The notes under the pieces are model-generated. The model worked only from the letters and a program-made list of their open reading frames with translations, was not told the origin of the DNA and did no database searches. The position numbers were made by a program, and so were the translations under genes. A DNA stretch of 64,000 nucleotides from contig JAPOOG010000097.1 in assembly GCA_026713545.1 (NCBI GenBank), forward strand, positions 1 to 64,000. Direction: 5' to 3'. Shown one piece after another: positions 3,758 through 55,800 of this stretch; within the stretch, counting starts at the first letter, position 1, and each line of letters opens with the position of its first letter. The stretch comes from Bryobacterales bacterium (GTDB taxonomy: Bacteria; Acidobacteriota; Terriglobia; Bryobacterales; UBA6623).

Positions 3758-6700
3758 ATGACTACCGGTTCGGGAGTGCCCTTGTTCAGGTTGTCTGCTG
3801 GAATGGCCGCCGTTGTCGTGCTCGCCGCGGCGGTGGCGGCGGGAAGTTCGGCTTCGCCGCCCGTGAGCTTTGCTTCGTTCGAGGAGAGCCTCTCGTTCGA
3901 CGGCGTGTGGACACGCTCCTGGACGCTGGATGAAGGCCAGGCGCTGGAGATTCACGTCAGCATCGACGACCCCGAGGAGTTGCCGGCGAACGGTCGGATC
4001 AAGGTGCGGTGGGAAGGGCCGCACCTGGCGGAATGGGCATTCGAGGGCGACCGTGGAGACCTGTACTCCTCGTCAACAGCAGATTGGCAGAAGACACTTC
4101 ATGAACTGGATCCGGATGTTTCCCTTGTCTACCGGGCGCCCGCCGCAGGCTCGTATCGACTCACTGCAGAAACCGTCACGGAGGGCGGTGTCGAAGTATC
4201 GGAAATCCCGCGCGATCCGGGCTTGGCGCAGTTGGCGACGCCGATGCCCGCCAGCACGCCCATCATCCCGGATGTGGGGATCACGGTCTCACTGCGTCCG
4301 ATCGATGCCTTGCATCAGGACGACGTCGTTCTCGAAGCCGAACCGAACAGCACGCCGGAACTGGCGATCCATTTACCGTTCGAGGCGAGGAACGAGGACC
4401 AGGTATTGCGAGTCTTCGGCGGCGCCGATGAGCTGGAGTATTACAACAACACGGCTTCAGGCAAGTCGCCCGACGACTGGTATCGGATCGAGTACCAGGG
4501 GACGCAACCGAAGATCTTCACCGCGAACCTGCAGTTGATCGAGCCCGTGGTCAGCGCACGGATTCGGGTTTATCAACCCGGCACGCCCGGTCCCGAGGAC
4601 CTGGAGCCCCGTGAGCTACCCGACCGCAAGAACTTCGGCAACGCCAACCCGATTCCGTACGTGCATCCGCCGGCGCAGGTGATTCCCGGTCCGGTTGCCG
4701 TCTTCAGCTACTACGAAGGACGCGACGTGAACGAGCGCATTCATCAGCAGGACACGAACTTCCGCTCGTTCGCCACCCGCAAGATCGAGCCGGGCGGGGT
4801 GTACTACTTGCGGGTGGAGGCGAATCAACCCGGCTATGAGCTTGAGGTGCGGCTGATCGATCCGGCGCCGTACGACGACCCCGTTCGCGCGGTCGAAGAA
4901 GCGATCTATTACCATCTCGCCGAGATCGATGCCTGGTTGATCCATCGGCCGCGCAACATCGCCGTTGACCGGCGTGTACGCGACGGTACGAGCCTGTTCG
5001 GCGAGAACTGCATGAGCTGCCACACGCAGAGCGGCGTGTGGGGCGTGGCGGACGCCTTACGCAGCGGCTATCGGCCCTCCGGCACCGTGCAGAACTGGCG
5101 GCGGCTGGTGAACACGATGTACGAGAGCTTGCGGCCGTCGATCAAGCTCAAGGACGCGGCGGTGAATACGAGCCTTGCCCCCAACGATCTGGGCGATGCC
5201 CCGGCAGGGAGCCGCGTGGCGGGACGGAACATCGTTCTGCACGAGCGGACGGTCCGGCCGAAGCGACTGCACCGTTATCAGCAGCGCCGCACCGCGAACT
5301 ACGTATTGCAGACGAATGACCCGAAAGGCATCAATGCGGCGGGCAAGGGATCGAACTTCGGCCCGAACGTGGTGTTCAAGTTTTCGGCCGAGATTCTGGA
5401 GCGGGCCTGGCGGGATACGAATGATCCGCGCTACTTCTTCGGCTTGCAGGAGAAGGCGAAGAAGATCATGGCGACCGGCAACGACGGCATGAAGGTCAGC
5501 GACGACCTGGGGCACCGGATCGAATTCTTCCATCAACTTTGGCCGGAGAACTATCCGGAGATCGTCAGCGAGCTGACCGGGTCGAAGGCGCGGGCAGCCG
5601 AAGCCCAGGCGTTTCAGGCCGCGTTCACGGCGCAAGTGAAGACGGATCTTGAACGGCTCAGCGCCTTGCAGCAGGAAGACGGCGGCTGGGGGTTCGATCT
5701 GGGGACTCTGCTGGATGACAGCAAAACCTGGAAGCGGCTGGATGAGCCAAGCGACCCGGCTCCTACGGCGGTGGCCCTGATTGCGCTGGAAGCGGCAGGG
5801 TTTGGAGCGGATGATCCACGGGTCCAGAGGGCGACGAAGTGGTTGCTTGATGATCAATACGAGTACGGGCTTTGGAACCACTCGGCGCAGACAGGATTCG
5901 TAACCACGGCGTACGTGATCCGGGCGCTGAGCCGGCTGTACCCCGTCGAGGCGCATCAAAGCGAGCAGCCGACGGAGGAATCGATCGCGGAGCTGACCTT
6001 GCTGGAAGCGCTGAGCCGCGTCCGACGGCATCAGGTTTCGGGAGACGCGGCGTGGACGGACGAGCTCATGGAGGCGGCGGAGAGCGAGCACGCTTACGTG
6101 AGGTATCAGGCGCTGCTGGGGATGGGCGGTTCGTTGGCGCCGGAGAGCGCGCCGACGCTGATCAAGCATCTCGATGATCCGGTGAAGATGTGCCGCGAGG
6201 CGGCGTTCTGGTCGTTGCGGCAATTGTTGCTTGATGACATGGGCTGGCGCGAGACGTTCGAGGCCTATGTGACGGCCGGCGCCCGGGGAAGGCAAGCGAT
6301 CTTGCAGGCTCTGGTGACGAGGGTTGACCTGGCGGGGCCGCAAAGCAAGGTGGACCTGACCGAGATTGCGCGTCTGCTGGCGGCGGGGATGTCGGATTCA
6401 TATGCGGGCGCCAGGGCTTTCGCTTTCAAGGCGGCGTGGCACTGGTGGGTTTGGAATCCGCCGCTTCGAGAGGCGGTGAACCGCGCTTGGGCGGATGCGC
6501 TGGTGCGGGAGGAACCGAACGCGGCGGCGGAGATGGCGCTGCGTTACTCGACGGTTTCGATGCTGATCGTCAACGGGCAGATCGCAAACCAGACGGGCGG
6601 CAAGAACATCGATCAGCAGTATCCCGAGCTGTCCGACCTGTACGAGTCGTTGGCCGAGCGCCGCGAAGAGGCGAGTGACGAAGAGCGAGTGCTGTTCGAC

Positions 6701-8581
6701 CGCCGGCTCACGGCGGTGGCAGCATCGCACTTTCAGGAGCGCGGCAACGACGGCGGGCCGGGTCAGTTGGGATACTCGACGCCGGGGAGTACGGAGTTCA
6801 TTGGGAAGGTCATTCTCGACACCCACGATCGTGAGGCCGACGGAGCGATTCCCTGGAAGAAGATCTCGCTCGAAGCGGCGGCGAATGTCGCATATGCACC
6901 GCTCGAAGAGCGCCTGCTCGACTTGCTCACGACGGGCGACCTCGACATGGTGGCGGTCGCTTCGCGGGCTCTGGTGAATCCGCAATCGTTGTCGCTGCCG
7001 GGAGACGTGAATACGCTGCGGCAGTTGCTGGCGAAGATCGATCGTTTTCTCGCGGCCGGCCGGGACGAGGACGCGGAAGCGCTGACGAACTTCATGGCGC
7101 GGGTAAAGTGGGACTTTGACGGCGTCAGCGAGCGTGAGGAGCAGGAGTTCTACCGGCTGCTGATTTCGGGCCGACGGCAAGAGCGTCCGCGGGCATCGGC
7201 TTCGAGCGCCGGCTTCCTCGGGAGGCCGGCGCCGGATGAGGGTTCCACGGATTCGGCCGGGGACGACGAAAAGGCCGTTCTCCTGGGGCGCGTCCTGGGT
7301 GAAAACCGGACGCTTCATCGCAACACGGCATTCGAGCTTGTGGATGAGAATGAGCGCTTCTGGCTCCCTTCGACGGAGTGGATGGTTGTGTATCAGGAAG
7401 GCGGCCTGTCGATGGAAGAGGCGGTCGAGGGCGCCGTTGAAGCAGAGGATCTGAAGGTGGCCGAGTTGACCTTCGGCCGCACGACCGAGCAGATGGTCCC
7501 GAACGGGCTGACCAGCAAGAATACGATTCTCTGGTGGCGCGAAGGAGTGCCCGGCGCAAGGCTGACGCTGTTGCTGGACTCACCCGAGGCCGGTCCGCAC
7601 GAGATTCTCACGGCGTTTCTGTATGACCGTGAGATGGGCACGGTGCAGTTTGCATTGAACGGCGCGGAGATCGGCGAGCCGATAGATTTCTACAAGCCGG
7701 ACCTGACGCCGAGCGGCCCCGTGTCATTGGGCGTGCATGAGTTCAAGAAGGGCGAGAACCGACTGACGGTCAAAATGCTGGGCGCCAACCCTGAGGCCGA
7801 GCCGAACTACATTTTCGGGATCGACTATATCAAGTTGACACCCGACGACGGCAGCGGCTCGCTGTTTGCCAGAGACGAGCTTGGCGTCGATGTGATCGAC
7901 CCGATCACGACGACAAAAGACAAGATCATCCGAATGTTCAACACCTGGTTCGCTGCGGATCAGCCCGAAGAGGCCCGTGAGTTGGCCGTGCAGTTGGCGA
8001 ACAAGACGGCGCTGCGGCGCAATCCGGAAGTACGCAAAGCGCTCGCAGCTTATGTCGAGCAGGAGCCGCTTCCCCGATTACAGAGGCAGATCCAGAACAT
8101 TCTCAACAGCGATGACAAGGTCTACGGCGAGCAGCTCGGGCAACTGATCACCGAGCAAGGCCCGCCGCAGGGTTCGGACGCGCGGCGATTGGAATCAACG
8201 GAGAAGTTCATCGAAGACATCCTGCACTTTCGCGATTACGTCTTCGCGGAGATGACGAAGATCAACTCCTCCGACGCCAAGGCTTGCATCTCCTGCCATG
8301 GCGTGCCGGGGCGCGTGCCGACGCTGTATCTGGATCCGCCGGACGCGGTGGGGTACATCCCGCCGGACCAGTTGCTCGACAACTATCGCAAGATGCAGCA
8401 GCGTGTCGACCTGCGCGACGTGGAGCGCAGCAAGTTTCTGCGCAAGCCGCTGAACATCCAAACCGGGGAAGAGGACGGGCACCAGGGCGGACAGCGCTAC
8501 GAGGCCGAGGATGCGGGATATCAGGTGATCCGGCAGTGGGTGCTGAAGCAGGCGGAGCTGCAGCGCGGCGCAGTGAACTAG
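3758..8581 (+). CDS. giant secreted di-haem cytochrome c with alpha/alpha-barrel and HEAT-like regions
   Basis: A 1607-residue exported protein with a signal peptide at about residues 1-33. Order of parts: beta-rich domain with pre-peptidase-C-like features (about 34-400); a first haem-binding CMSCH at 418-422; an alpha/alpha-barrel-like segment (about 628-730) with the QQEDGGWG and WLLDDQ patterns of squalene-cyclase/prenyltransferase-type repeats; HEAT-like helical repeats (about 770-1000); a carbohydrate-binding-like beta domain (about 1200-1370); and a second haem motif, CISCH, at 1510-1514. It resembles the very large planctomycete/acidobacterial cytochromes linked to periplasmic oxidation of complex organic matter, but the exact substrate and electron acceptor are unknown. 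The ATG at 3758 is favoured by the signal peptide and the TATAAT just upstream. No partner enzyme is adjacent. Haem sites are seen directly; the domain names are inferred from sequence pattern. Confidence 0.8.
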   Translation: MTTGSGVPLFRLSAGMAAVVVLAAAVAAGSSASPPVSFASFEESLSFDGVWTRSWTLDEGQALEIHVSIDDPEELPANGRIKVRWEGPHLAEWAFEGDRGDLYSSSTADWQKTLHELDPDVSLVYRAPAAGSYRLTAETVTEGGVEVSEIPRDPGLAQLATPMPASTPIIPDVGITVSLRPIDALHQDDVVLEAEPNSTPELAIHLPFEARNEDQVLRVFGGADELEYYNNTASGKSPDDWYRIEYQGTQPKIFTANLQLIEPVVSARIRVYQPGTPGPEDLEPRELPDRKNFGNANPIPYVHPPAQVIPGPVAVFSYYEGRDVNERIHQQDTNFRSFATRKIEPGGVYYLRVEANQPGYELEVRLIDPAPYDDPVRAVEEAIYYHLAEIDAWLIHRPRNIAVDRRVRDGTSLFGENCMSCHTQSGVWGVADALRSGYRPSGTVQNWRRLVNTMYESLRPSIKLKDAAVNTSLAPNDLGDAPAGSRVAGRNIVLHERTVRPKRLHRYQQRRTANYVLQTNDPKGINAAGKGSNFGPNVVFKFSAEILERAWRDTNDPRYFFGLQEKAKKIMATGNDGMKVSDDLGHRIEFFHQLWPENYPEIVSELTGSKARAAEAQAFQAAFTAQVKTDLERLSALQQEDGGWGFDLGTLLDDSKTWKRLDEPSDPAPTAVALIALEAAGFGADDPRVQRATKWLLDDQYEYGLWNHSAQTGFVTTAYVIRALSRLYPVEAHQSEQPTEESIAELTLLEALSRVRRHQVSGDAAWTDELMEAAESEHAYVRYQALLGMGGSLAPESAPTLIKHLDDPVKMCREAAFWSLRQLLLDDMGWRETFEAYVTAGARGRQAILQALVTRVDLAGPQSKVDLTEIARLLAAGMSDSYAGARAFAFKAAWHWWVWNPPLREAVNRAWADALVREEPNAAAEMALRYSTVSMLIVNGQIANQTGGKNIDQQYPELSDLYESLAERREEASDEERVLFDRRLTAVAASHFQERGNDGGPGQLGYSTPGSTEFIGKVILDTHDREADGAIPWKKISLEAAANVAYAPLEERLLDLLTTGDLDMVAVASRALVNPQSLSLPGDVNTLRQLLAKIDRFLAAGRDEDAEALTNFMARVKWDFDGVSEREEQEFYRLLISGRRQERPRASASSAGFLGRPAPDEGSTDSAGDDEKAVLLGRVLGENRTLHRNTAFELVDENERFWLPSTEWMVVYQEGGLSMEEAVEGAVEAEDLKVAELTFGRTTEQMVPNGLTSKNTILWWREGVPGARLTLLLDSPEAGPHEILTAFLYDREMGTVQFALNGAEIGEPIDFYKPDLTPSGPVSLGVHEFKKGENRLTVKMLGANPEAEPNYIFGIDYIKLTPDDGSGSLFARDELGVDVIDPITTTKDKIIRMFNTWFAADQPEEARELAVQLANKTALRRNPEVRKALAAYVEQEPLPRLQRQIQNILNSDDKVYGEQLGQLITEQGPPQGSDARRLESTEKFIEDILHFRDYVFAEMTKINSSDAKACISCHGVPGRVPTLYLDPPDAVGYIPPDQLLDNYRKMQQRVDLRDVERSKFLRKPLNIQTGEEDGHQGGQRYEAEDAGYQVIRQWVLKQAELQRGAVN

Positions 8582-8864: not shown

Positions 8865-9623
8865 CTACGAACGGGCCTCAGCGCAGCGCACCATGACGGG
8901 CTCGCCCTCGATAGCCACACAGGCCGCGAAGGCCGGGTCGGTACGCAAGGTCGTCAGAGTCCAGCGGGAAGGTTCGTCGGGATTATCTCTTACCCACAGC
9001 AGTTCGGCGGGAGCGTCGGGCGCGAGGGAGACGGCGAAGGAATCAAGCGGGATGGACATGCCTGCGCCTTTCGCCTTGATATAGGCTTCCTTGCGGGTCC
9101 AGCAGCGGAAGAAGGCGGCGGTGTATTGATCGCCGGAAAGCGCAAAGAGGGCGGTAACCTCGCGCGGGGCGAAAAAGCTCTCGGCGATGCCACGAGTGGA
9201 GCGTTCGGGGCGGATGCGTTCCAGGTCGATGCCGATGTCGCGGCCCACGGTGAAAGCGAAGAGGGCGAGTTCGTCGGAGTGGGAGAGGTTGAAACGGAGA
9301 TCCGATTGGTTTTGGCCGGGTGCGAGGTTGGGTTTTCCGTGCTCGTTGTGGCTGAAGATGATTTCGCCAGGGGATAGGGCGAGATATTTTCCGAGCAGCG
9401 AGCGCAGCAGTCCGCGGCCGGCCGTAAAGCGGCGCCGGTGCTTCTCGGAATGGAAGCGAGCCGCGCGTTCGCATTCGTCATGCGACAGGGATTCGCTCAA
9501 GCGGCGCTGCGCCAGCGGCTCGACATCGAGGCAGGCTCGCCAAATGTGCAGGTGACCATCCTGGAGAACCTGCCTGCCTTCCTCGATGCTGTCGCTTGGA
9601 AAAACACCCATCAGGGGCTGCAT
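8865..9623 (-). CDS. 4'-phosphopantetheinyl transferase, Sfp type
   Basis: A 252-residue enzyme of the Sfp/Gsp class, which moves the phosphopantetheine arm of coenzyme A onto the conserved serine of carrier proteins. The magnesium-binding motif is GIDLERI at 131-137 (D133, E135) and the second signature is WTRKEAYIKA at 175-184. The N-terminal LHIWRACLD stretch is typical of the group. Length matches Sfp-type enzymes rather than the shorter AcpS, so it is the natural candidate to activate the PKS carrier domain (S2536) and the free ACP at the far end of the window, 43 kb away; this pairing is inference. It lies about 100 bases downstream of the acyl-CoA synthetase gene on the same strand and may be the last gene of that operon. 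Confidence 0.92.
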   Translation of the reverse strand: MQPLMGVFPSDSIEEGRQVLQDGHLHIWRACLDVEPLAQRRLSESLSHDECERAARFHSEKHRRRFTAGRGLLRSLLGKYLALSPGEIIFSHNEHGKPNLAPGQNQSDLRFNLSHSDELALFAFTVGRDIGIDLERIRPERSTRGIAESFFAPREVTALFALSGDQYTAAFFRCWTRKEAYIKAKGAGMSIPLDSFAVSLAPDAPAELLWVRDNPDEPSRWTLTTLRTDPAFAACVAIEGEPVMVRCAEARS

Positions 9624-11295: not shown

Positions 11296-13032
11296 TCAGG
11301 AGCGCGTGACGGGCGCGCGCACCACGCCGAACGTCGGAACGGCAGGGTTCACCGGCGAGTCGATCCCGGGAATCGCGCCGTCACAACGCTCACGATAATA
11401 CGGCTGAAGGTCCGGAACGGGGGCGACGACACGGCCTGGTGTTCTCTGCATCGAGCCGTTGGTCATCACGGAGACAGAGGAGACACGGATCGGGTTGAAC
11501 TCGAACCACGGGTCAAAGGCAGATCCCTTTCCCGCAGGTTCCGGGAACGAGATTCGGACCGTTGACCGATCGACGGAGAAATGGCGTCCCTGGAAGTACC
11601 AGGGCTGCGCGACGATCTCACCGCTGGTCGAATCCGACGGATCGGCAGCACTCCGCCGTAGTCCCAAGACAGGAATTTGCGATAGCGAGGTGCCTGTCGG
11701 GATGCCGCGGAGTCTGCCCTGCGCGTTCAGCAATTCGCGGCCACGCCGGACGCAATGCGCGGAGAAGTCGTTAAAGCTCACGCTCAGGTCGGATGTCCCG
11801 AGCTTGGAAGGATAACCGAGAACCTCGCGCCCGAAGGTGAGATCACCGCCTTCACTGACGATATGCGACAGGGCGTACCAGCCGCGCTCACGCTCGACCA
11901 CTGCGAAAGCAAACAGCCAGACCTCGCTGAACGGAACGGGCGAGAGGTCGCTCTCCTCAACGCGCAGGACGAGCAACCGGAGGGCGGGCCGGAAGCCTGC
12001 TCGACAGGGCGGCGGGAGGATATCGTTCTTGATCTGTCCGGTCGTCGTCAGCCGGGCGTCGAGCATATCGACGGGGCCAAGCCGCACTTCCCTGCGTGAT
12101 CGGTAGCGTTCGATCTCGGCGCCGGAAAGGCGGAAAGCAGTCGCCTTGTCAGGCCAGTCTTCGGGCTGCCAGGGCCTCCGGGAGGTGTGCGGTCGGTCGT
12201 AATGCATGAGGTTCCAGGATTGGAACTCCGAGGCGTCGATGCCGCTGACGAACCGCGGCTTGCGGGCATTGCTTGGGGGAACGTGTTCGGCAGTACCTTC
12301 CTCAAAGATTGCCGCAAGGATCTCGAGAGCAGGAAACTCCACGATGGGGTCGAGCGGCGATGCGTGCGGCAGTTGGAGCGCCGCGCTTTCAATGTCACAG
12401 GCGCGAATGAGGGAATCGGACGGAGCGGCCGGTGCCGGAATACGCCAGATGCCGGTCGATCGACCTGCAGTTGCTATTTGCCAATCAGGTCCGAGGCCGT
12501 AGCGGTAGCAGAAGAGGTCGCGGCCGGCGGAAGGGCCGCTCGATGAAACGCTGCGGTCGGTGCGAAGGGTGGCGACGCGGAGAAGTCGAAAGCCCTTGCT
12601 GTCGAGCGACGCCTTGACGGAAGCGCCTTCTACGGTGAGATCGATTTCGGCAGGTTTCGTGTTGAAGCCGAGGTGTTCGCGCTCCCAGAGCCGAAGCCAC
12701 TCGTGAGTTGTCCAGCGGATGGGCTGGAACCAACCCGGTCCAGAGCCGTGCTCGACGGCCAGGCGGACGCCCGCGGCAAGGTAAGGGCCTTCGAATAGCG
12801 GCCCTGCGGATTCGGGAATGATCCGCACGCATTCGAACCAGGCCTCGCCGCTCCGGTCCGCACTCAGGGCGGGAGGGAGCGCGCGTGCGATGCGGTTCGG
12901 GTCGGTGCGATATCGGACGAGCAGCTTCTGATATCGCGTCTCGCCGCTTGCCGGAGCGGCATCGCGGGGCCAGAGCAGACAGGATCCGGCACCGAGGCAC
13001 AACCGCACGAAACCGCGGCGGTGCAGGGTCAA
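11296..13032 (-). CDS. Tat-exported tandem acetoacetate-decarboxylase-like protein
   Basis: I place the start at a TTG (13032-13030) that overlaps the dehydrogenase stop codon as TTGA and has an AAAGG eight bases upstream; an in-frame ATG at 13107 would add 25 arginine-rich residues. From the TTG the protein is 578 residues and begins with a twin-arginine signal (LHRRGFVRLCLGAGS). Two halves each resemble the acetoacetate decarboxylase (ADC) fold: an N-terminal VRYRTDPNRIARALPP element, and a later GREVLGYPSKLG element corresponding to the active-site region, where the classical paired lysines appear as Ser-Lys. The catalytic lysine may therefore be lost. Function is unknown; position in a beta-oxidation operon suggests a substrate-binding or modifying role in the periplasm (inference). 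Confidence 0.75.
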   Translation of the reverse strand: MTLHRRGFVRLCLGAGSCLLWPRDAAPASGETRYQKLLVRYRTDPNRIARALPPALSADRSGEAWFECVRIIPESAGPLFEGPYLAAGVRLAVEHGSGPGWFQPIRWTTHEWLRLWEREHLGFNTKPAEIDLTVEGASVKASLDSKGFRLLRVATLRTDRSVSSSGPSAGRDLFCYRYGLGPDWQIATAGRSTGIWRIPAPAAPSDSLIRACDIESAALQLPHASPLDPIVEFPALEILAAIFEEGTAEHVPPSNARKPRFVSGIDASEFQSWNLMHYDRPHTSRRPWQPEDWPDKATAFRLSGAEIERYRSRREVRLGPVDMLDARLTTTGQIKNDILPPPCRAGFRPALRLLVLRVEESDLSPVPFSEVWLFAFAVVERERGWYALSHIVSEGGDLTFGREVLGYPSKLGTSDLSVSFNDFSAHCVRRGRELLNAQGRLRGIPTGTSLSQIPVLGLRRSAADPSDSTSGEIVAQPWYFQGRHFSVDRSTVRISFPEPAGKGSAFDPWFEFNPIRVSSVSVMTNGSMQRTPGRVVAPVPDLQPYYRERCDGAIPGIDSPVNPAVPTFGVVRAPVTRS

Positions 13033-14816
13033 ACCACAAACCTTTCGGCGGCGATCAGGCGCTCGGCGATGCGTCGGCGAATAGCGATGGCGTCGAGAGC
13101 GGGGCAATCGGTGAGACGCCGGAGCAGCCGCTCGGTGTGAACGAGAGCCTCGCCGTCGAGGGATGCGGCCAGGATGGTCGATCCGAGACGCCGGACTTCC
13201 GTGAGAAGGTCGAAGACCAGTAGCCGCGCCATGTCGCGCGCGTTCTCGCCGCGGCCTCGCGCTCGAAGCTTCTCGGCGCGCAGCAGAGCTGATTCGGCGG
13301 CATAGATACCGATGACCATGCCGCTGACCGCGGCGACGACTTCCTGCTGCTGCTCAAGCCGGTCTCCGAAGCGTTGATAGGCGGCGCCGGCACAGATGTG
13401 CGTCGCTTGCTTGGCGCGCCGCAACAGCTCCCGCTCGGGCGCGCCGGCCCAATCGACGTTGCCGAGAGCGTCGCTGACCGCCTCGTTCATGGCGTTTCTT
13501 GCGGCTGTCCCAAGGTCAAGGCGTTTCTGCGCGGCGCGCTTGAGGAGCATGCCGGTGATGAGCAGACGGTTGATCTCGTTGGTGCCCTCGTAGATACGGT
13601 TGATGCGCGAATCACGATAAGCGCGCTCGATGCTGTAGTCCTGGTGAAAGCCATAGCCCCCGTGGACTTGCACGCCTTCATCGACCAGGTAATCGAGCGA
13701 TTCGCTGGAGTACACTTTCACGATCGAGCACTCGACAGCGTATTCCTCGATGGCCTTCAGATGCGCGCGCGCCGAATGCTCGCCGGTCCAGTCGAGGCCG
13801 GCCGAGCGGGCGTCGATCATGCCCGAGGTGCGGTATACGATCGACTCGGTGGCAAAGAGATAGACGGCCATCTGCGCGAGCTTGTGGCGGATCAAGCCGA
13901 AATCGGAGATGGATCTTCCGAACGCCTGACGCTGTTTGGCGTATTCGATCGTGGCGGCGATCACGTCCTCGCCGCCGCCGATGCAAGCCGCGCCTAATTC
14001 CAGGCGGCCGATGTTGAGGATGTTGAAGGCAATGAGATGGCCGCGGCCGATTTCTCCGAGCACGTTCTCGACCGGGACAGCGACCTCGTCAAGCACCAGG
14101 GGCGTCGTCGAACTCCCCTTGATGCCCATCTTCTTTTCTTCCGCGCCAGGCTTGACGCCTTCCCAACCTCGTTCGATGAGGAAGGCGGTGAACTTCTCAC
14201 CGTCGACTTTGGCGAATACGGTGTAGAGATCCGCCCAGCCGCCGTTGGAGACCCACATCTTCTCGCCGTTGAGGATGTAATGCTTGCCGTCGGCAGCCAG
14301 CTCGGCTCGCGTGCGAGAGGCCAACGCGTCGCTGCCGGCGTGGGGTTCACTGAGGCAGTAGGCCGCGATCCATTCTCCGCTGCCAACTCGCGGGAGATAG
14401 TGCTGCTTCTGGTCTTCGGTACCGAAGAAAACCAGCGGGAGCGTACCGATGTGCGTGTGCGCGCCGTAGGTGGTCGAGAACGAGGCGTAGCGTCCGATGC
14501 GCTCGGCAACGACCTGGCCGCTGGTCATGTCCAACTCGAGCCCGCCGTATGGCTCGGGAACTCCGACCGCCAGCAGGCCGAGGTCGCCGGCCTGCTTCAT
14601 GAGCTTGCGGCAGAGGCCGGGCTCTTGCGCCTCGAATTGCTCGATCCGAGGGAAAACTTCTTCGGTCACGAAGCGGTCGGCTGTGGATTCGATCTGGCGC
14701 TGCTCTTCGGTGAAGTCTTCCGGGGTGAAGGCGGTCTCGGCGGGAAAGTCTTCGAGAAGAAAACCGCCGCCGGCAGGGGCTGCGCCCGTTATGGGAATGG
14801 ACTCGGTAGTGGCCAT
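13029..14816 (-). CDS. acyl-CoA dehydrogenase
   Basis: A 595-residue FAD-dependent acyl-CoA dehydrogenase that introduces the alpha-beta double bond in acyl-CoA. Visible family signatures are AYCLSEPHAGSDA (FAD/substrate loop), the middle-domain KMWVSNGGWAD stretch, and RIYEGTNEINRLL near the C-terminal part of the catalytic domain. It carries about 150 extra C-terminal residues compared with short-chain enzymes, matching the very-long-chain/ACAD9-like architecture, so long-chain substrates are likely. It is 24 bases downstream of the thiolase gene, and its stop overlaps the proposed start of the next gene by four bases, so these genes are almost certainly one operon. Confidence 0.93.
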   Translation of the reverse strand: MATTESIPITGAAPAGGGFLLEDFPAETAFTPEDFTEEQRQIESTADRFVTEEVFPRIEQFEAQEPGLCRKLMKQAGDLGLLAVGVPEPYGGLELDMTSGQVVAERIGRYASFSTTYGAHTHIGTLPLVFFGTEDQKQHYLPRVGSGEWIAAYCLSEPHAGSDALASRTRAELAADGKHYILNGEKMWVSNGGWADLYTVFAKVDGEKFTAFLIERGWEGVKPGAEEKKMGIKGSSTTPLVLDEVAVPVENVLGEIGRGHLIAFNILNIGRLELGAACIGGGEDVIAATIEYAKQRQAFGRSISDFGLIRHKLAQMAVYLFATESIVYRTSGMIDARSAGLDWTGEHSARAHLKAIEEYAVECSIVKVYSSESLDYLVDEGVQVHGGYGFHQDYSIERAYRDSRINRIYEGTNEINRLLITGMLLKRAAQKRLDLGTAARNAMNEAVSDALGNVDWAGAPERELLRRAKQATHICAGAAYQRFGDRLEQQQEVVAAVSGMVIGIYAAESALLRAEKLRARGRGENARDMARLLVFDLLTEVRRLGSTILAASLDGEALVHTERLLRRLTDCPALDAIAIRRRIAERLIAAERFVV

Positions 14817-30785: not shown

Positions 30786-31201
30786 CCCTGTTCGGTTTAC
30801 CCTCTTACCCTGTGCCCAGCGCCGCGAGAACGGGGGAAGTGCGAAGGCGGGCGTATCAGCGCCCATGACGAGCGGAGAACCGCCCGCTTGGACCGTGAGT
30901 GGCCGCGGGCTAGAAAAATTGCCCGAGCAATGTGGGGACTCGGGCGTAAACGACGATCGATCGGGGTGTCGTGGGCACGTGTGCCACAACTTGTATTTCT
31001 CTGTCGAGGCTAGAGAACAAACATGCGTCATGGCGTAAGTCCTGTTAAATCAACGAGGGAGCCGCTCCCACCTGTCTCCTCAGCCTCCCGAACGCCCCCG
31101 CCTCTCCCCATCGCCAGCGGCGGGATCACGCACATGCATTGACACCGAAATAGCGCTCCGCGAGAATGAACCTGCCGATAGTCGAGTCAAGGAGGATCTC
31201 C
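30786..31201. other. gene-free stretch before the sulfatase
   Basis: No supported gene in either strand. The right end holds the sulfatase ribosome-binding site (AGGAGG at about 31190). No terminator or repeat was recognised. Confidence 0.5.
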
Positions 31202-32725
31202 ATGTCGAGCAGCTTGCCGCGCGGCGGCTTTTTGAAGCGGGTCATGCTGTCGTTCTTCGCCGCGGGCATTCTCACCGCCTTGTGCGCCGCGGAATCGGAG
31301 CGGCCCAACATCCTGTTCATCTACACCGATGACCACTCCTACCGCACGGTCAGCGCCTACCCGCAGGCGTATCCCTGGGTCAAGACGCCGACGATCGACC
31401 GGCTGGCGCGCGAAGGCGTGCGCTTCGAGTCCGCCTACATCGGCACCTGGTGCATGCCGTCGAGAGCCACCCTGCTGACGGGGCATCATCAATTCGGCGT
31501 CGAGTCGATGCGCATGGAGGGGCCGTACCCCGGCAGCGCCTACGATCCCGACCAGTGCCCCTTCTGGCCCAAGACGTTTCGCGACAACGGATACTTCACG
31601 GCCCACATCGGCAAATGGCACACGGGCGTCGACACCGGATACGGCCGCGACTGGGATTTTCAGATCGTCTGGAACCGGCCCCGGTTCACCCAGAACCATC
31701 AGAACTACTACTACGACCAGCCCATCACCTATCAGGGCCGGGAGACCAAAGAGCTCAACCGCTACTCGACCGACCAGTACACCGATTGGGCCATCGACCT
31801 GATCAAGGGCGAGGGACGCGACGAAGAGAAGCCCTGGTACCTGTGGTTGTGCTACGGCGCGGTCCACAGTCCGTTCACCCCGGCCGACCGTCACATGAAG
31901 GAGTACGCCGGCATCGACTTCAATACACCGGCCGACATCTTTCCGATGCGGCCCGGCAAACCCGACTGGGCACAGAAAATCAACGCCTGGGAAAAGGGTC
32001 CCGGCGGCAGACCGGTGTGGCGCGGACGCAGCCTGATCTCATACGTCCGGCAGTATCACCAGGGGGTGCTGGCGATCGACGAGGGAATCAATCGCCTGCT
32101 CGCGACGCTTGAAGAGACCGGTCAGCGCAAGAACACGCTGATCGTCTTCACGTCCGATCAAGGCCTGGCCTGGGGCCAGCACGGTTTTCGCGGGACGAAG
32201 GTGGCTCCCTACGACGCGACGATTCGATCGCCGCTGATCGTGAGCTTCCCCGGCAGGCTGCCGCAGGGCGCGGTCTGCCCGACGCCGGTGGGCGGCGTGG
32301 ACATCGTCCCGACGTTCTTCCGATTCGCGGGCATCGAACTGCCCTGGGAGATGCATGGCAACGACCTGACACCGCTGCTCGAGAACCCGAACGCCGACTG
32401 GCCGCATCCCATGTTGCTTACGGGTACCGGACGTATGTACGGGTCCGACACGAACGTGATTCCGAAAGGAGAGGGGGCTTTCCACGGACCGGTGCCGTGG
32501 TACGTGATGCTGCGCGAGGGGCGCTACAAATATATCCGCCCGCTGGTCGAAGACCTCGAAGAGCTGTACGACCTCACGGCCGATCCGGAGGAACTCGACA
32601 ACCTCGCGGTCAAGGCTGAGCACCGCGAAACCCTCGAGCGCCTGCGCGCCACGGCCATCGCGGAGTTGCGCAAAGACGGCGCGGGCTTTGTCGACTCGAT
32701 GCCGCCGGTGCGGGAGAGCTGGTAG
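31202..32725 (+). CDS. secreted sulfatase
   Basis: A 507-residue type I sulfatase. The ATG at 31202 is chosen because AGGAGG precedes it and a signal peptide follows (MLSFFAAGILTALCAA). The first metal-binding motif is NILFIYTDDHS; the residue converted to formylglycine is C84 in CMPSRATLLTG, the classical C-x-P-x-R signature; further conserved elements are GKWHTG and FTSDQGLAWGQHG. It hydrolyses sulfate esters, probably on polysaccharides, in the periplasm. Maturation requires a formylglycine-generating enzyme; the candidate just upstream (29975) is frameshifted in this sequence. Confidence 0.93.
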   Translation: MSSSLPRGGFLKRVMLSFFAAGILTALCAAESERPNILFIYTDDHSYRTVSAYPQAYPWVKTPTIDRLAREGVRFESAYIGTWCMPSRATLLTGHHQFGVESMRMEGPYPGSAYDPDQCPFWPKTFRDNGYFTAHIGKWHTGVDTGYGRDWDFQIVWNRPRFTQNHQNYYYDQPITYQGRETKELNRYSTDQYTDWAIDLIKGEGRDEEKPWYLWLCYGAVHSPFTPADRHMKEYAGIDFNTPADIFPMRPGKPDWAQKINAWEKGPGGRPVWRGRSLISYVRQYHQGVLAIDEGINRLLATLEETGQRKNTLIVFTSDQGLAWGQHGFRGTKVAPYDATIRSPLIVSFPGRLPQGAVCPTPVGGVDIVPTFFRFAGIELPWEMHGNDLTPLLENPNADWPHPMLLTGTGRMYGSDTNVIPKGEGAFHGPVPWYVMLREGRYKYIRPLVEDLEELYDLTADPEELDNLAVKAEHRETLERLRATAIAELRKDGAGFVDSMPPVRESW

Positions 32726-37683: not shown

Positions 37684-38868
37684 CTAACGCTCGGCCAGCT
37701 CGGAGGCGCGGATGTCCTTGAAATCGAGATTCGTCGTCGGGTCGTGGGCTTGCAGGCTGATGACTCCGGGCGCGAGGCGGGCCTGGCGGCGGGCGTTGTT
37801 GCCCGGAGGGCGCGGGTCTTCCCAGTCGGCGGTCTGGATGCCGTTGATCCAGACGGCAAGGTGGCGTTCGTAGGCGACCACGGTCTTATGGAAAAACTCG
37901 CCGTCGTTGGGGATGACGCGTCGAGCCGGCACATAGAAGTAGAGTCCGCCGGTGCCGAAATCGTGGGGCTGTGAGCGGTCATCGTTTCGGAACTCGTTGC
38001 GGATTTGCGACTCGTAGCCGCTCCAGAAGACCCCTTTCTCGCCGCGGAAGAAAACTCCGCTGTTGGGGTGATGGTCGGCCGAGGGCGGATTCGTCTTGAT
38101 CGCGAGCTGCAGCACGAGGTTCTCGAATTCCTTCATCGTTTCGAGCTGCCCGGCGCCCTTCTCGACATGCAGAATGCCGTCGCGGACCGACCACTCGTGG
38201 ACGTCGTCGCGGTTCGGACGGTCGACCTTCTGCCAGCCGCTCAGGTCCTGTCCGTTGAAGAGCGGGGCGAGGCCGAGCGGCCGGAGCTTGATGTTGCGAA
38301 ACTCGATCGGTTTGTCCTCGTTGTATTGCAGGCCGATCACGCCGGCCGCGTGGGACGAGTCGCTGGCGTCGAGCACCTCGCGGTCGTTGAGCCGCACGAC
38401 GAAGCGGCTGCCGACGGCGCGGACATGGTAACGGTTCCACTGCCCGCCGATGAACTGCGCGGGTTGCGCCTTGACGTAGAAAACGAGGCTTCCGGTGTTG
38501 TAGCCCTGCGGTTGACGATTGAAGATCTGCAGCTCATAGCCGGTTTGGTGAGGCTCGCCGCGGCGGGCCGAACGCAGGAACACTCCGCTATTGCCGTCGG
38601 CAGGCGTTCGGAATTCGAGGCTGAGCTCGAAATCGCCGAAGCTGCTGGTCGTGCCCAGCCAACCGTAGCCGCCGCCGTCGGACTTGAGGACGCCGTCCTC
38701 GATCTTCCAGCGGGCGTCGCCGTGCCATTCCCAGCCGTACTCGGTCTTGCCGTCCCAGAGCAGTATCCAGCCCTGTTCGACCTCCTGCGGGGTCAGGGTG
38801 TTGTCCTGGGCGATGAGCGCGGACGGAATCAGCAGGCCGAAGATGAGCGCCGAGGCAAAGAATCTCAT
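37684..38868 (-). CDS. secreted protein with two DUF1080 (3-keto-disaccharide hydrolase-like) domains
   Basis: A 394-residue protein from the ATG at 38868, chosen for its Shine-Dalgarno sequence (GAGAGGAAA) and signal peptide (ASALIFGLLIPSALIAQ); an open frame extends to 39630 without support. Two concanavalin-like DUF1080 domains are visible: residues about 25-205 (WILLWDGKTEYGWEWHGDARWKIEDGVL...) and about 210-394 (PLFNGQDLSGWQKV...WSVRDGILHVEKG). Each has the GNSGVFLR/NSGVFFRG core and a YELQIF or YESQIRNE stretch. Members cleave keto-sugar glycosides in bacteria degrading plant or marine polysaccharides. A TATACT on the coding strand at 38901-38896 is a promoter candidate. Confidence 0.9.
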   Translation of the reverse strand: MRFFASALIFGLLIPSALIAQDNTLTPQEVEQGWILLWDGKTEYGWEWHGDARWKIEDGVLKSDGGGYGWLGTTSSFGDFELSLEFRTPADGNSGVFLRSARRGEPHQTGYELQIFNRQPQGYNTGSLVFYVKAQPAQFIGGQWNRYHVRAVGSRFVVRLNDREVLDASDSSHAAGVIGLQYNEDKPIEFRNIKLRPLGLAPLFNGQDLSGWQKVDRPNRDDVHEWSVRDGILHVEKGAGQLETMKEFENLVLQLAIKTNPPSADHHPNSGVFFRGEKGVFWSGYESQIRNEFRNDDRSQPHDFGTGGLYFYVPARRVIPNDGEFFHKTVVAYERHLAVWINGIQTADWEDPRPPGNNARRQARLAPGVISLQAHDPTTNLDFKDIRASELAER

Positions 38869-38969
38869 GGGGTTTCCTCTCGTCGGGAAACGTCTAGTAT
38901 ACGCACTCCTGGATATCTCCCCATGCGCCGATTTGCGCGTGACGGCCCTCGGGCGGGCCGACATCCGGG

Positions 38970-40334
38970 TCAGCCGGCGAACTGCATGAGGACGGAGTAG
39001 CCGGTCATGACGGCCATGACCACCGCCGACACCCAGAGCGCCAACGTGAGCCAGCCTTTGGGCAGGATCTGCCTGGGCATGTGGCGGTAGCGCAGCCATA
39101 CGGCGACGAACCCGATGACGGGCAGCATGAGCGCTTGCGCGACGCCGCCGATCTTGACCATCAGGACCGGGGCCTTCAGAAACATGAAGTACACGGCGGG
39201 AACGAAGAGCAGGACCACGACGAAGATGCGCGTGTAGCGGAGGCGGAGGGCGTAGTTGTTCTTGTCGAAGACGCCCAGCATGGCGAGGAAGTCCGGGACC
39301 ATCCGGCAATGGGCCGCGGTGGACGCGAACAGGGTCGAGTAGAAGACGGCGAAAGCGCCCACCAGGAAGAGATAGAGCGACCAGTGGCCGAGCGTCTCGG
39401 TGTACATGTTCGACAGTGCCTTGACCATCTCCGAGCCCTGCGGCATCAGCCCCATGCCGTTGAGAATGCCCGCGCCCAGCAGGTAGAACGCGATGGTGGC
39501 GAAAGTGTAGATCACCATCGAGTTGAGGACGTCGACGCCCATCACCTTGATCCAGCCGAAGGCGCGCTGCCGCCAGGCCGGGGTGTCGTCGCGCTTGCCG
39601 GTGAACCGTGCGTAGCCCTTCTCGATGCACCAGTAGGGATACATCACCAGCTCGGTGGCGCCGACGCCGGTGATGCCGAATGCGGCGACGGCGGTGACGA
39701 AACCGCCCTGCGGCATCGAGAACATGAGTCCGCCGAGCAGGGCGTCCCAGGAGAAGAATTCAGGGCGCTTGATGAGCAGGAACGCGCAACTGACGGTGAG
39801 CACCGTGAAACTGACGACGAGTCCCATCGCGACGCGTTCCACCAGCGAGTAGCGGCCGGCGACCAGGAGAACCGCAGTTCCGGCGGCGACGATCCAGACC
39901 CAACCGGCGACGGAAATCGCCGGCATCAGGTCATGGAGGATTTCGGAAATGCCCCCCATCATCCCGCCGACCTGCATGAGCGTCATGGCAATCATCAGGA
40001 CCCACAGCCAGACGACCCACGACACGCCGAGCCGCGGCCCCGGGACGCGATTGAAAGCCTCCAAGGTCGTCTCGCCCGTGCCGATCGCGTAACGGCCCAG
40101 TTCGTTCTGGACGGCGAGCTTGATCAAACAGCTCACGATGATGAGCCACAGCAGGGTGTAGCCGTTCTCCGCCCCGAGGACAGTGGTCGCGATGAGCTCG
40201 CCGGAGCCGACGATGGAGCTGGCGAGAATCAATCCCGGACCGATCCGCCGGAAGATCGCGGCGAACCGGATGGGAGGAGTTTCGATGTCCTCGGGACGTA
40301 GTTGGTAGGGGTCCTGCAAAGAGGAAGTGGACAT
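38970..40334 (-). CDS. divergent Nramp-family membrane transporter
   Basis: A protein of 454 residues from the ATG at 40334 (an ATG five codons earlier is also possible) with about eleven hydrophobic segments. The start of TM1 (IGPGLILASSIVGSGELIATTVLGAENGY in outline) aligns with the Nramp core, but the canonical metal-binding DPGN is replaced by GSGE, and the TM6 MPH motif is not seen (the region reads GVGATELVMYPYW). It is therefore related to Nramp transporters but is unlikely to carry manganese or iron in the usual way. The neighbours concern sugars, so an organic or alternative-cation substrate is possible (inference). The sugar-isomerase gene ends 18 bases upstream, so the two are probably co-transcribed. 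Confidence 0.85.
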   Translation of the reverse strand: MSTSSLQDPYQLRPEDIETPPIRFAAIFRRIGPGLILASSIVGSGELIATTVLGAENGYTLLWLIIVSCLIKLAVQNELGRYAIGTGETTLEAFNRVPGPRLGVSWVVWLWVLMIAMTLMQVGGMMGGISEILHDLMPAISVAGWVWIVAAGTAVLLVAGRYSLVERVAMGLVVSFTVLTVSCAFLLIKRPEFFSWDALLGGLMFSMPQGGFVTAVAAFGITGVGATELVMYPYWCIEKGYARFTGKRDDTPAWRQRAFGWIKVMGVDVLNSMVIYTFATIAFYLLGAGILNGMGLMPQGSEMVKALSNMYTETLGHWSLYLFLVGAFAVFYSTLFASTAAHCRMVPDFLAMLGVFDKNNYALRLRYTRIFVVVLLFVPAVYFMFLKAPVLMVKIGGVAQALMLPVIGFVAVWLRYRHMPRQILPKGWLTLALWVSAVVMAVMTGYSVLMQFAG

Positions 40335-52875: not shown

Positions 52876-55800
52876 ATGAAAGCAGATGGATATTCCGATC
52901 CTTCCGGAGAACTGCCCTCCGAACCTGAGGTTGGGCAACGGGAAGTTTCTCGAAATGCGCGGCCAATAGCAATCGTGGGTATGGCGTGCCGGTTCCCTGG
53001 TGCGGAGGGACTTGAGGCTTTCTGGCGCCTGCTTGCAGCCGGCGAGAACGCTGTGACGGAGGGCGTTCCCGGTTCCGGCGCTGGGCGAGTGGGCGAGCTG
53101 TTCCCCGACGCTGCCGTCAAGAGCGAGGCCTGCAGGTTCGGGGGTTTCATCGATGGCATCGATCAGTTCGATGCGGAATTCTTCCGGATATCGCCGGTCG
53201 AGGCGGATCTGTTGGATCCGCAGCAGCGAATGATGTTGGAGACGAGCTGGCAAGCCCTCGAAGACGCCGGGGTGGATCCGGAGCGGCTGAAGGGTAGCCG
53301 CACTGGGGTGTTTGCAGGGATCAGCAACAACGAATACCGAGGCCTGATCCTGAGTTCCAGCGACACCTCTGAGCCGGCGGCAAGCCTCTATTCAGTCACC
53401 GGCACATCCCTGAACACCGCCATCGGGAGAGTTTCCTTTGTGATGGGTCTGGAGGGACCGGCGCTGTCAATTGATACTGCCTGCTCTTCGTCGCTGGTCG
53501 CGGTGCATCAGGCGGCCGTCGCCTTGCAGCGGGGTGAGGCCGATCTGGCGCTTGCGGGGGGTGTCCACGCCATCCTGTCCGGGCGGCTGTTCGAGTTGCG
53601 TGCCAATGCCGGGATGTTGGCGCCCGATGGGCGCTGCAAAACGTTCGATGCGGCTGCAAACGGTTATGTGCGGGGCGAAGGCTGCGGAATCGTGGTCCTC
53701 AAGCGGCTAAGTGAGGCGGAGGCGGACGGCGACCGGATATGGGGCGTGATCCGAGGTTCGGCGGTCAACCAGGATGGGGCGAGCGCCGGCCTGACGGTAC
53801 CTAACGAGGCGGCACAGGAGCGGGTCATCGAAGAGGCGTTGTCCCGGGCCGGGGTGCTGCCCTCGGAAGTGGATTACGTGGAGACGCACGGGACGGGAAC
53901 GGAGGTGGGAGATCCGATTGAGTTGCGCTCGACTGCGGCTGCTTACGGCAAGGGGCGCACCACGGACCGCCCGTTGCTGATCGGCTCGGTGAAAACGAAC
54001 CTCGGCCATCTGGAGTCGGCAGCGGGGGTCGCCGCTCTGATCAAGGTAATGCTGGCAATGAAGCAGGGCGCGATACCAAAGCACCTGCACTTCCGGAAGC
54101 CCAATCCGAAGTTGGACTGGGAGCAGCTACCGTTGCGAGTCGCTTCTGTACCGATGGACTGGCCGCTCCATCCCAATCGCCCCGCGATGGCGGCCATGAG
54201 TGGATTTGGGTGGTCGGGCACGAATGCGCATGTCGTGGTCGAGGGGTACGGTGCCCCGGATGGCGATTCCGAAGCAAGCAGCGGGATGCACTCGCCCGCG
54301 GGTTCCGAACGGCCGGTTGAGGTTTTCATGCCGGAGACGGTTGCAGACCTGCTTCCGGAGAAACCATTGCTTCAGGCTCGAGAGACGCGCTTCTTGCCTC
54401 TTTCGGGGAAGTCGGATCAGGCGCTCAAGGACCTGGCGGGGCGCTATCTGTCGTGGCTCGACGAACGCTCCGCCAAGCCTTCTTCGCCTGATGCCGAAAA
54501 GGCCCTGCTTGCGGATATGGCCTGGACGGCGGGCGTGGGTCGCAGCCACTTCGGGCATCGGGCGGGCTTGGTGTTCCAGGACGCCGAGTCCTTGCGCGAG
54601 GGCCTGTGCGAGCTTGCCGCGGCGGACGCAGGGCCTGTGTCGCAACCACCTTCCAAAGTGGCGTTCGTCTATACCGGGCAGGGTAGCCATTGGGTTGGCA
54701 TGGGCGAGAGTCTGTACCACAACGAGCCGGTGGTGCGGGCGGTGTTGGACCGCTGCGACGCGATGCTGCGGCAAGATCGTGGTATTTCGTTGCTGGATGT
54801 GATGTTCGGTCGGCCCGGATCGGGAGCAGATTTGTCCGATCAGGCTTGGACACAGCCGGCCGTTTTTGCACTGGAGTGCGCTCTGACCGCACTGTGGTCG
54901 AGCCTAGGTATCCGTCCCAGTGTAGTGTTGGGGCACAGTTTCGGCGAGATTGCCGCTGCGCAAGCGGCAGGAGTGTTCAGCCTGGAAGAGGGATTGCGGT
55001 TTGCAGCGGCAAGGGGGGCGTTGACCGCAAAGCTGCCGAGTGGGGCCATGGCTGCGATTTTTTCGGACGTGACTCGGGTGGAAGCAGCGATAGATGCGTT
55101 GAACGCAGCCTCAGCAGGGGCAGGTCTGAGCATCGCGGCATACAACGGAGCCCATCAGGTTGTGAGCGGCCCGGAAGGAGATGTCGAGGCGATCTTGGAG
55201 CGGTTCCTCGCGGAGGACATCCGAGTCAGCCGCTTGCACACCAGGAACGCCTTCCACAGTGCCTTGGTGGAGCCGATGCTGGACGAGTTGGAAGCCGTTG
55301 CCTCTAGGCTCAAAATTGCGCCGCCGGCGCTGACGCTGGTGACTAATGTGACCGGGCAGGTGCTGGAATCCGGAGAACTGCTGGATGGAGAGTATTGGCG
55401 CCGGCACACGCGGGAGCCGGTGGCTTTCGGCCCAGGTATTGAGACACTGGCGCGTTTGAAGGTCGATCTGGTCGTTGAGATCGGTCCGAACGCGGTGCTG
55501 GGCCCGATGGCAAGCTTGGCGTGGCCGGAGTCGGCAGACGGCTCCGGGCCGCCGGTTGCGCTGTCGAGCTTGCTGCGACCCTCGGCCAAGGTGTCGCAGG
55601 CGGAAGCGGACCGCGCCTTCATAACGGCGGTTGCGAAAGCCTACCGGACGGGTCTCCCGGTGTCCTTTGCGGGGCTGTTCGCCGCTGAGACTCGGCGCCG
55701 GATCGCATTGCCGAGCTACCCCTTCCAGCGCCGGCGCCACTGGCTCGAAGCACCGAAGCGGCGGCGATTGAGCGCTGGTCACCCGTTGCTGGGCGACCGA

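Follow-up and report, generated by a model that had tools for sequence, protein, structure and literature searches.

The gene at positions 3758-8581 of the window, as we call the whole stretch of 64,000 nucleotides analysed here, belongs to a real and conserved family of Acidobacteriota proteins of unusual architecture, whose constituent modules are individually recognisable. Our best explanation of its product is a c-type electron-transfer protein with two haems that is secreted to the periplasm or the cell surface and likely acts in carbohydrate or alcohol oxidation outside the cytoplasm, and we judge the chances for and against this explanation to be about even. If a c-type haem does sit inside a terpene-cyclase-like toroid, this would be an unexpected use of a fold that to our knowledge otherwise serves to cyclise isoprenoids or to bind sugars. 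Moreover, a single chain with both a PSCyt-related cytochrome domain and a haem toroid offers something definite for expression and assay, and it shows which modules belong together. No description of the family was found in the literature searched and no Pfam, NCBIfam or PDB match spans the entire protein, so that the opinion of an earlier sequence-only reading, that no characterised enzyme has such a domain order, still stands.

The intact reading frame starts with ATG and has 1607 codons, and the gene is single-copy in its 5.6 Mb genome (G000). No lipobox cysteine was detected by a pattern check within the first 60 residues. The protein has five cysteines in total and two CxxCH sites, CMSCH at residues 418-422 and CISCH at 1510-1514, confirming the placement of haem sites near the first quarter and the C-terminus of a 1607-residue protein by the sequence-only reading. 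Among 20,000 composition shuffles at least one CxxCH appeared in 5 and two in none; both sites are kept in all 34 full-length copies, which have 19-95% identity. The genome encodes c-type cytochrome assembly (three PF01578 matches over the cut-off). The features of the gene are as follows.

3758-8581, + strand: whole gene, 1607-residue protein, predicted to be secreted and di-haem (ORF call)
3758-3859, + strand: probable Sec signal peptide, about residues 1-34 (read by eye)
3863-4327, + strand: N-terminal beta domain, about residues 36-190 (AlphaFold model)
4328-4870, + strand: second beta domain, about residues 191-371, similar to pre-peptidase/collagen-binding beta-sandwiches (VIA-align)
4871-5950, + strand: haem toroid, an alpha/alpha barrel with a QW-type motif, residues 372-731 (SQHop_cyclase_C, VIA-align, hhalign)
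5009-5023, + strand: haem-1 attachment site CMSCH, residues 418-422 (34 of 34 copies)
5951-7411, + strand: HEAT/ARM-like alpha-solenoid, part one, about residues 732-1218 (Pfam HEAT_2/HEAT, Foldseek, VIA-align)
7424-7861, + strand: inserted beta-sandwich, carbohydrate-binding-like and lineage-specific, about residues 1223-1368 (7ehg, DUF2961 proteins)
7904-8158, + strand: HEAT-like solenoid, part two, about residues 1383-1467 (helices in the AlphaFold model)
8180-8578, + strand: C-terminal PSCyt-type cytochrome domain, residues 1475-1607 (hhalign)
8285-8299, + strand: haem-2 attachment site CISCH, residues 1510-1514 (34 of 34 copies)
8480-8491, + strand: invariant H1575-x-G-G, candidate second axial ligand of haem 2 (34 of 34 copies; ligation inferred)

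The 34 copies comprise that of the window, 17 close relatives and 16 more distant ones. The close relatives are full-length proteins from a scan of a contig database (53-95% identity to the window protein), in which all the records hit were named Bryobacterales, Terriglobia or Acidobacteria. Matches at E 1e-20 or better occur in 65 of 257 whole genomes of the order and in 16 of the 18 genomes of the window's own taxonomic family. When the phylum was sampled evenly, 97 of 396 genomes gave some match at E 1e-3; most of these are single-domain matches, either to the QW stretch or to the beta-sandwich, and long co-linear ones were found in G000, G235, G275, G291, G188 and G147. Two versions of the family exist in the order: one of about 1600 residues with the beta-sandwich insert, in the window's own family, and one of 1315-1352 residues without it. 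Remote copies (1389-1494 residues, 19-22% identity) retain both the domain order and the two CxxCH sites. Exactly four histidines are invariant across the 34 copies, namely one in each CxxCH site, H1575 and H115; H329 is found in 33. The locus L064 (5210-6127, - strand) encodes a 305-residue protein in which just the C-terminal cytochrome domain and some helical sequence are present, a stand-alone version of the haem-2 end.

For the layout of the chain we have employed two AlphaFold models built from an 18-row alignment; their quality is moderate overall (mean pLDDT 70.4 and 71.5) and poor around haem 1. K112, H115 and D118 of the N-terminal beta domain are invariant in all 34 copies. Residues of about 187-366 resemble the collagen-binding beta-sandwich 4hpk (VIA-align Z 12.3, 100 residues, rmsd 2.2). 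From residue 733 on the chain aligns structurally with HEAT proteins (VIA-align), Pfam HEAT_2 reaching 24.4 bits at 768-821, below its cut-off of 27.7. Matches of the models to complement C5 and to importins were set aside as low-TM resemblances of helical rings and solenoids.

Set into the solenoid, in the second half of the protein (model, Foldseek), is a beta-sandwich. The carbohydrate-binding-like domain that the sequence-only reading had proposed here, a putative sugar binder, gains some support from its fold: the solved sugar-binding module PDB 7ehg, "MiXBM", matches at a target TM of 0.67, an rmsd of 4.9 and 20% identity (Foldseek), and by sequence it matches residues 1276-1361 weakly (E 0.009). 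Judged by region length, the window copy and its 17 close relatives all have the domain (18 of 18), as against none of the 16 distant copies; to go by these sequences, it is not part of the core architecture of the family. The same beta-sandwich occurs in Acidobacteriota proteins with DUF2961, a domain linked to glycosidase family GH172, where it lies beyond the Pfam domain. The domain order given by the sequence-only reading is thus correct as far as it goes, except that the solenoid resumes after the beta-sandwich (1383-1467) and that the first CxxCH falls inside the span of the toroid.

An isoprenoid-cyclase-like helical section had been proposed from the sequence and is indeed recognised by Pfam SQHop_cyclase_C (PF13243), at residues 624-720 with 38.4 bits against a cut-off of 26.1. 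Model residues 337-696, which are residues 372-731 of the protein, align with the class II terpene cyclases (VIA-align); with the drimenyl-diphosphate synthase 7xru the Z is 12.1 over 265 residues at an rmsd of 3.0. Similarity to the GH88 and polysaccharide-lyase toroids is weaker. Since such Z values are middling for helical rings, the sequence evidence weighs more. Around the haem site itself Cytochrome_CBB3 scores 26.0 bits (406-454), just below its cut-off of 27.

The window's genome also encodes small secreted-looking proteins in which CVSCH stands ahead of a single QW toroid, one of 360 residues at C155 and another of 392 residues at C22. Matches to the C155 family turned up in 29 of 61 genomes of the order; most of them lie in longer frames, and those of the longer frames that were scanned carry ankyrin repeats. 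The alignment of this CVSCHHQ family has 8 rows: the protein of the window's own genome plus those among 29 loci (L126-L154) that passed a filter on C..CHH and length. Compared by hhalign with the window toroid it gave 98.4% (E 8e-15, 257 columns), with CxxCH falling on CxxCH, and 97.3% when CxxCH was masked. Taken by halves, the haem half gave 86% and the QW half 97.9%, and five column shuffles gave E 0.1 or worse. With the CxxCH sites in register, this alignment assigns haem 1 to the toroid. Haem 1 and the cyclase-like section, which the sequence-only reading had made two neighbouring domains, are therefore better read, on these sequence comparisons, as one haem-bearing toroid than as a toroid with a separate cytochrome.

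The haem-1 site lacks the CHH of the small family, having CHT in the window protein and CHT, CHA or CHP in the relatives shown. Across the 34 copies no invariant His or Met inside the toroid is available as a sixth ligand. A PDB search with the toroid profile returned 25 distinct chains at E up to 1; the best stretches of these 25 listed chains all start after the haem site and none reaches haem 1. A separate class I cytochrome around haem 1 was considered and judged less probable, as the 360-residue relative can hold hardly more than a signal and a single toroid; since the model is poor there, this judgement is a cautious one. Nor is the haem-1 segment related to the PSCyt domain (0.8%). The second small secreted-looking haem toroid (G000:C22:14500-18500, L118) carries CVSCHTTGW instead of CVSCHHQ and is nearer at the haem site to the CMSCHTQSG of the window protein. 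The small toroid also matches FtsH, at E 6e-5.

Some of the DUF1549/PSCyt2 proteins open with a cytochrome domain to which, by sequence comparison, the C-terminal haem domain of the window protein is related. The initial comparison relied on 6 segments chosen by a motif that includes HxGG; the final one used all 7 CX4CH segments of 13 stretches, out of the 62 PSCyt2 places of the genome. With these CX4CH cytochrome domains of its own genome hhalign gave 98.6%, and still 97.6% with both CxxCH and HxGG masked, as against 20.8% with the other non-MPP CxxCH segments of PSCyt2 proteins and 43.5% with the MPP type. HxGG is found in all 7 of the CX4CH segments, and its invariant histidine in the window family, H1575, is likely to be the second ligand of haem 2. 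The landmarks S-x-LL-x-KP, HxGG, R and W are shared with the PSCyt2 subset (CX4CH, SLLLxKP..HGGG); the window family differs in having CxxCH rather than CX4CH and in carrying the domain at its C-terminus rather than at the opening of the chain. PSCyt2 itself (PF07583) is absent from the Pfam matches of the window protein at E up to 1. A search with the domain against PDB sequences gave a best E of 0.083, which is unconvincing.

The three modules fused in this family are also found separately elsewhere in the same genomes. In other chains (L168, L169 and L172, of genomes G596, G566 and G410) PSCyt1 is followed by ankyrin repeats and then by a haem toroid; at C155 in the window's genome the same parts are split over two adjacent genes. 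As far as the sequences can tell, the window protein is the same trio of PSCyt cytochrome, repeat solenoid and haem toroid, with HEAT in place of ankyrin and in reverse order. The CVSCHHQ proteins (e.g. G000:C155:29736-30815) resemble the window protein in looking secreted, in the CxxCH that starts a single QW-type toroid and in their fusion, among relatives, with repeat solenoids and PSCyt1 into one chain. They differ in that their repeats are often ankyrin, their open frames are mostly of 360-981 residues and the haem site has CHH; moreover, their cytochrome domain, if any, is an MPP-type PSCyt1 at the N-terminus, whereas that of the window protein is C-terminal.

Two other kinds of secreted haem protein invite comparison. 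RoxA/RoxB, MauG and CcpA are di-haem oxidoreductases and have, as is predicted for the window protein, two c-type haems in one secreted chain, but the window protein differs from them in size and domain content, and no di-haem peroxidase, RoxA or MauG family is among its 7 Pfam matches at E up to 1. The PVC-type CxxCH proteins TIGR02603/TIGR02604 combine a beta-propeller, HEAT repeats and a cytochrome. They share with the window protein a large size, probable secretion and the joining of HEAT repeats to a cytochrome, but where they have a propeller it has a toroid; they are not among its 7 NCBIfam matches at E up to 1.

We clustered 38 gene neighbourhoods and recovered the family protein in 34; outside this count are L064, L065 and L066, with partial C-terminal matches, and L074, where a family match was reported. 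No cluster spans the family, so that the search for co-occurring genes proposed by the sequence-only reading turned up none adjacent to the family gene across the 38. The commonest neighbours are DUF1501-like proteins (8 of 38) and PSCyt/PSD1-like proteins (7 of 38), the names DUF1501 and PSD1 being our own assumption from the appearance of the sequences. As operon partners both were rejected, their counts being near chance given 62 PSCyt2 matches per 5.6 Mb and 10 kb on each side (61 of these PSCyt2/DUF1549 matches in G000 have E below 1e-29). In one genome, G550 (L067:3882-6595, - strand), a short family version divergently adjoins a gene for a molybdopterin-binding protein of the molybdenum hydroxylase type; by sequence appearance, the iron-sulphur subunit of that protein is adjacent too.

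The toroid relatives, as distinct from the window gene, do have oxidoreductase-type neighbours in 4 of the 11 neighbourhoods read, a small count: at L169 and L178 a PQQ dehydrogenase, at L177 a GMC oxidoreductase and at L172 RoxA-like di-haem proteins. With 13 long PQQ-dehydrogenase matches counted in the 5.6 Mb of the window's genome, one would lie within 5 kb by chance in a few per cent of cases; this association is suggestive only. G410:C23 (L172:178-10686) carries a repeated two-gene unit: haem-toroid genes, three in number, alternate with three genes whose products, of about 500 residues, each have two CxxCH and weak matches to RoxA-like cytochromes.

PMC5615132 ties PSCyt genes to carbohydrate use, through their CBMs and sulfatase neighbours, while calling their function unknown; passages of PMC3174227 give gene counts for HEAT-repeat proteins and cytochrome c peroxidases in Solibacter and do not describe the window protein. 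The overall context points to carbohydrate or alcohol oxidation outside the cytoplasm. On the electron-transfer explanation, the toroid haem would take electrons from a partner dehydrogenase of PQQ, flavin or molybdenum type or else from some small substrate that the toroid binds. Docking of partners and positioning of both haems would fall to the solenoid, and passing the electrons to the respiratory chain to the C-terminal cytochrome; the beta-sandwich that is inserted in the window's own lineage may tether the protein to glycans. The anatomy and the relatives fit the "electron-transfer scaffold for periplasmic oxidation" suggested by the sequence-only reading. The gene itself lacks a conserved neighbour that would point to a partner, and because the haems lie some 1,090 residues apart, with no model holding both in one frame, transfer between them is an assumption.

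It is possible, though we think it unlikely, that the window protein is itself an enzyme. The substrate, a sugar, polyol, phenolic or lipid, would then bind in the toroid cavity; haem 1, with one side open, would act as a dehydrogenase, peroxidase or oxygenase, with the C-terminal cytochrome draining or supplying electrons. In favour of this, the toroid offers haem 1 no conserved sixth ligand, the gene stands alone, with no conserved dehydrogenase partner, and in one relative haem-toroid genes alternate with those for RoxA-like di-haem proteins. Terpene cyclases, GH88 and polysaccharide lyases are moreover enzymes whose toroids have this fold (VIA-align Z 9.7-12.1), but similarity of fold does not show function and no catalytic motif is recognised in the window protein. 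Furthermore, the beta domains might supply the sixth ligand through H115 (34 of 34) or H329 (33 of 34). A wider and somewhat more doubtful proposal would make a c-type haem in the wall of an alpha/alpha toroid a general catalytic or substrate-binding module, the "haem toroid", which Acidobacteriota would join in either order to HEAT or ankyrin solenoids and PSCyt-type cytochromes as self-contained oxidoreductases for extracellular organic matter; PSCyt would handle the electrons, and H115 of the N-terminal beta domain would complete the coordination of haem 1.

A redox-sensing or structural scaffold, in which a large solenoid would organise envelope complexes and have its conformation adjusted by the haems, with no net electron flow, seems improbable. 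The very long HEAT solenoid does match scaffold proteins (Foldseek) and an operon partner is absent, but the C-terminal domain groups with the PSCyt cytochrome domain and two strictly conserved haem sites exceed the needs of a scaffold. Like the squalene-hopene and other class II terpene cyclases, the window protein has an alpha/alpha toroid with a QW-type motif; unlike them it has one toroid, a c-type haem site and no DxDD, which we take to be their catalytic motif. DxDD is missing from the toroid of all 34 copies (two have it outside, at 1359 and 1496), and the NCBIfam squalene-hopene cyclase TIGR01507 scores 36.7 bits against a curated cut-off of 431.1. A squalene-hopene-type cyclase or other isoprenoid enzyme with cytochrome additions is hence rejected as very improbable, even with SQHop_cyclase_C over its cut-off and class II cyclases among the best structural matches, in view of the single toroid without DxDD, a sequence similarity confined to the QW part and the secreted look of the protein.

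Elsewhere in the window there are a 3-keto-disaccharide hydrolase of DUF1080 type (37684-39630, - strand) and a sulfatase (31166-32725, + strand), a pair consistent with a glycan-degrading lifestyle. At 11296-13107 (- strand) lies the gene for a protein in which a signal-like N-terminus is combined with two acetoacetate-decarboxylase stretches, and at 8865-9623 (- strand) that for a phosphopantetheinyl transferase. Finally, the frame at 52876-63180 (+ strand) has 3434 codons, and the first 1000 residues of its product are the ketoacyl synthase and acyltransferase of a polyketide synthase.
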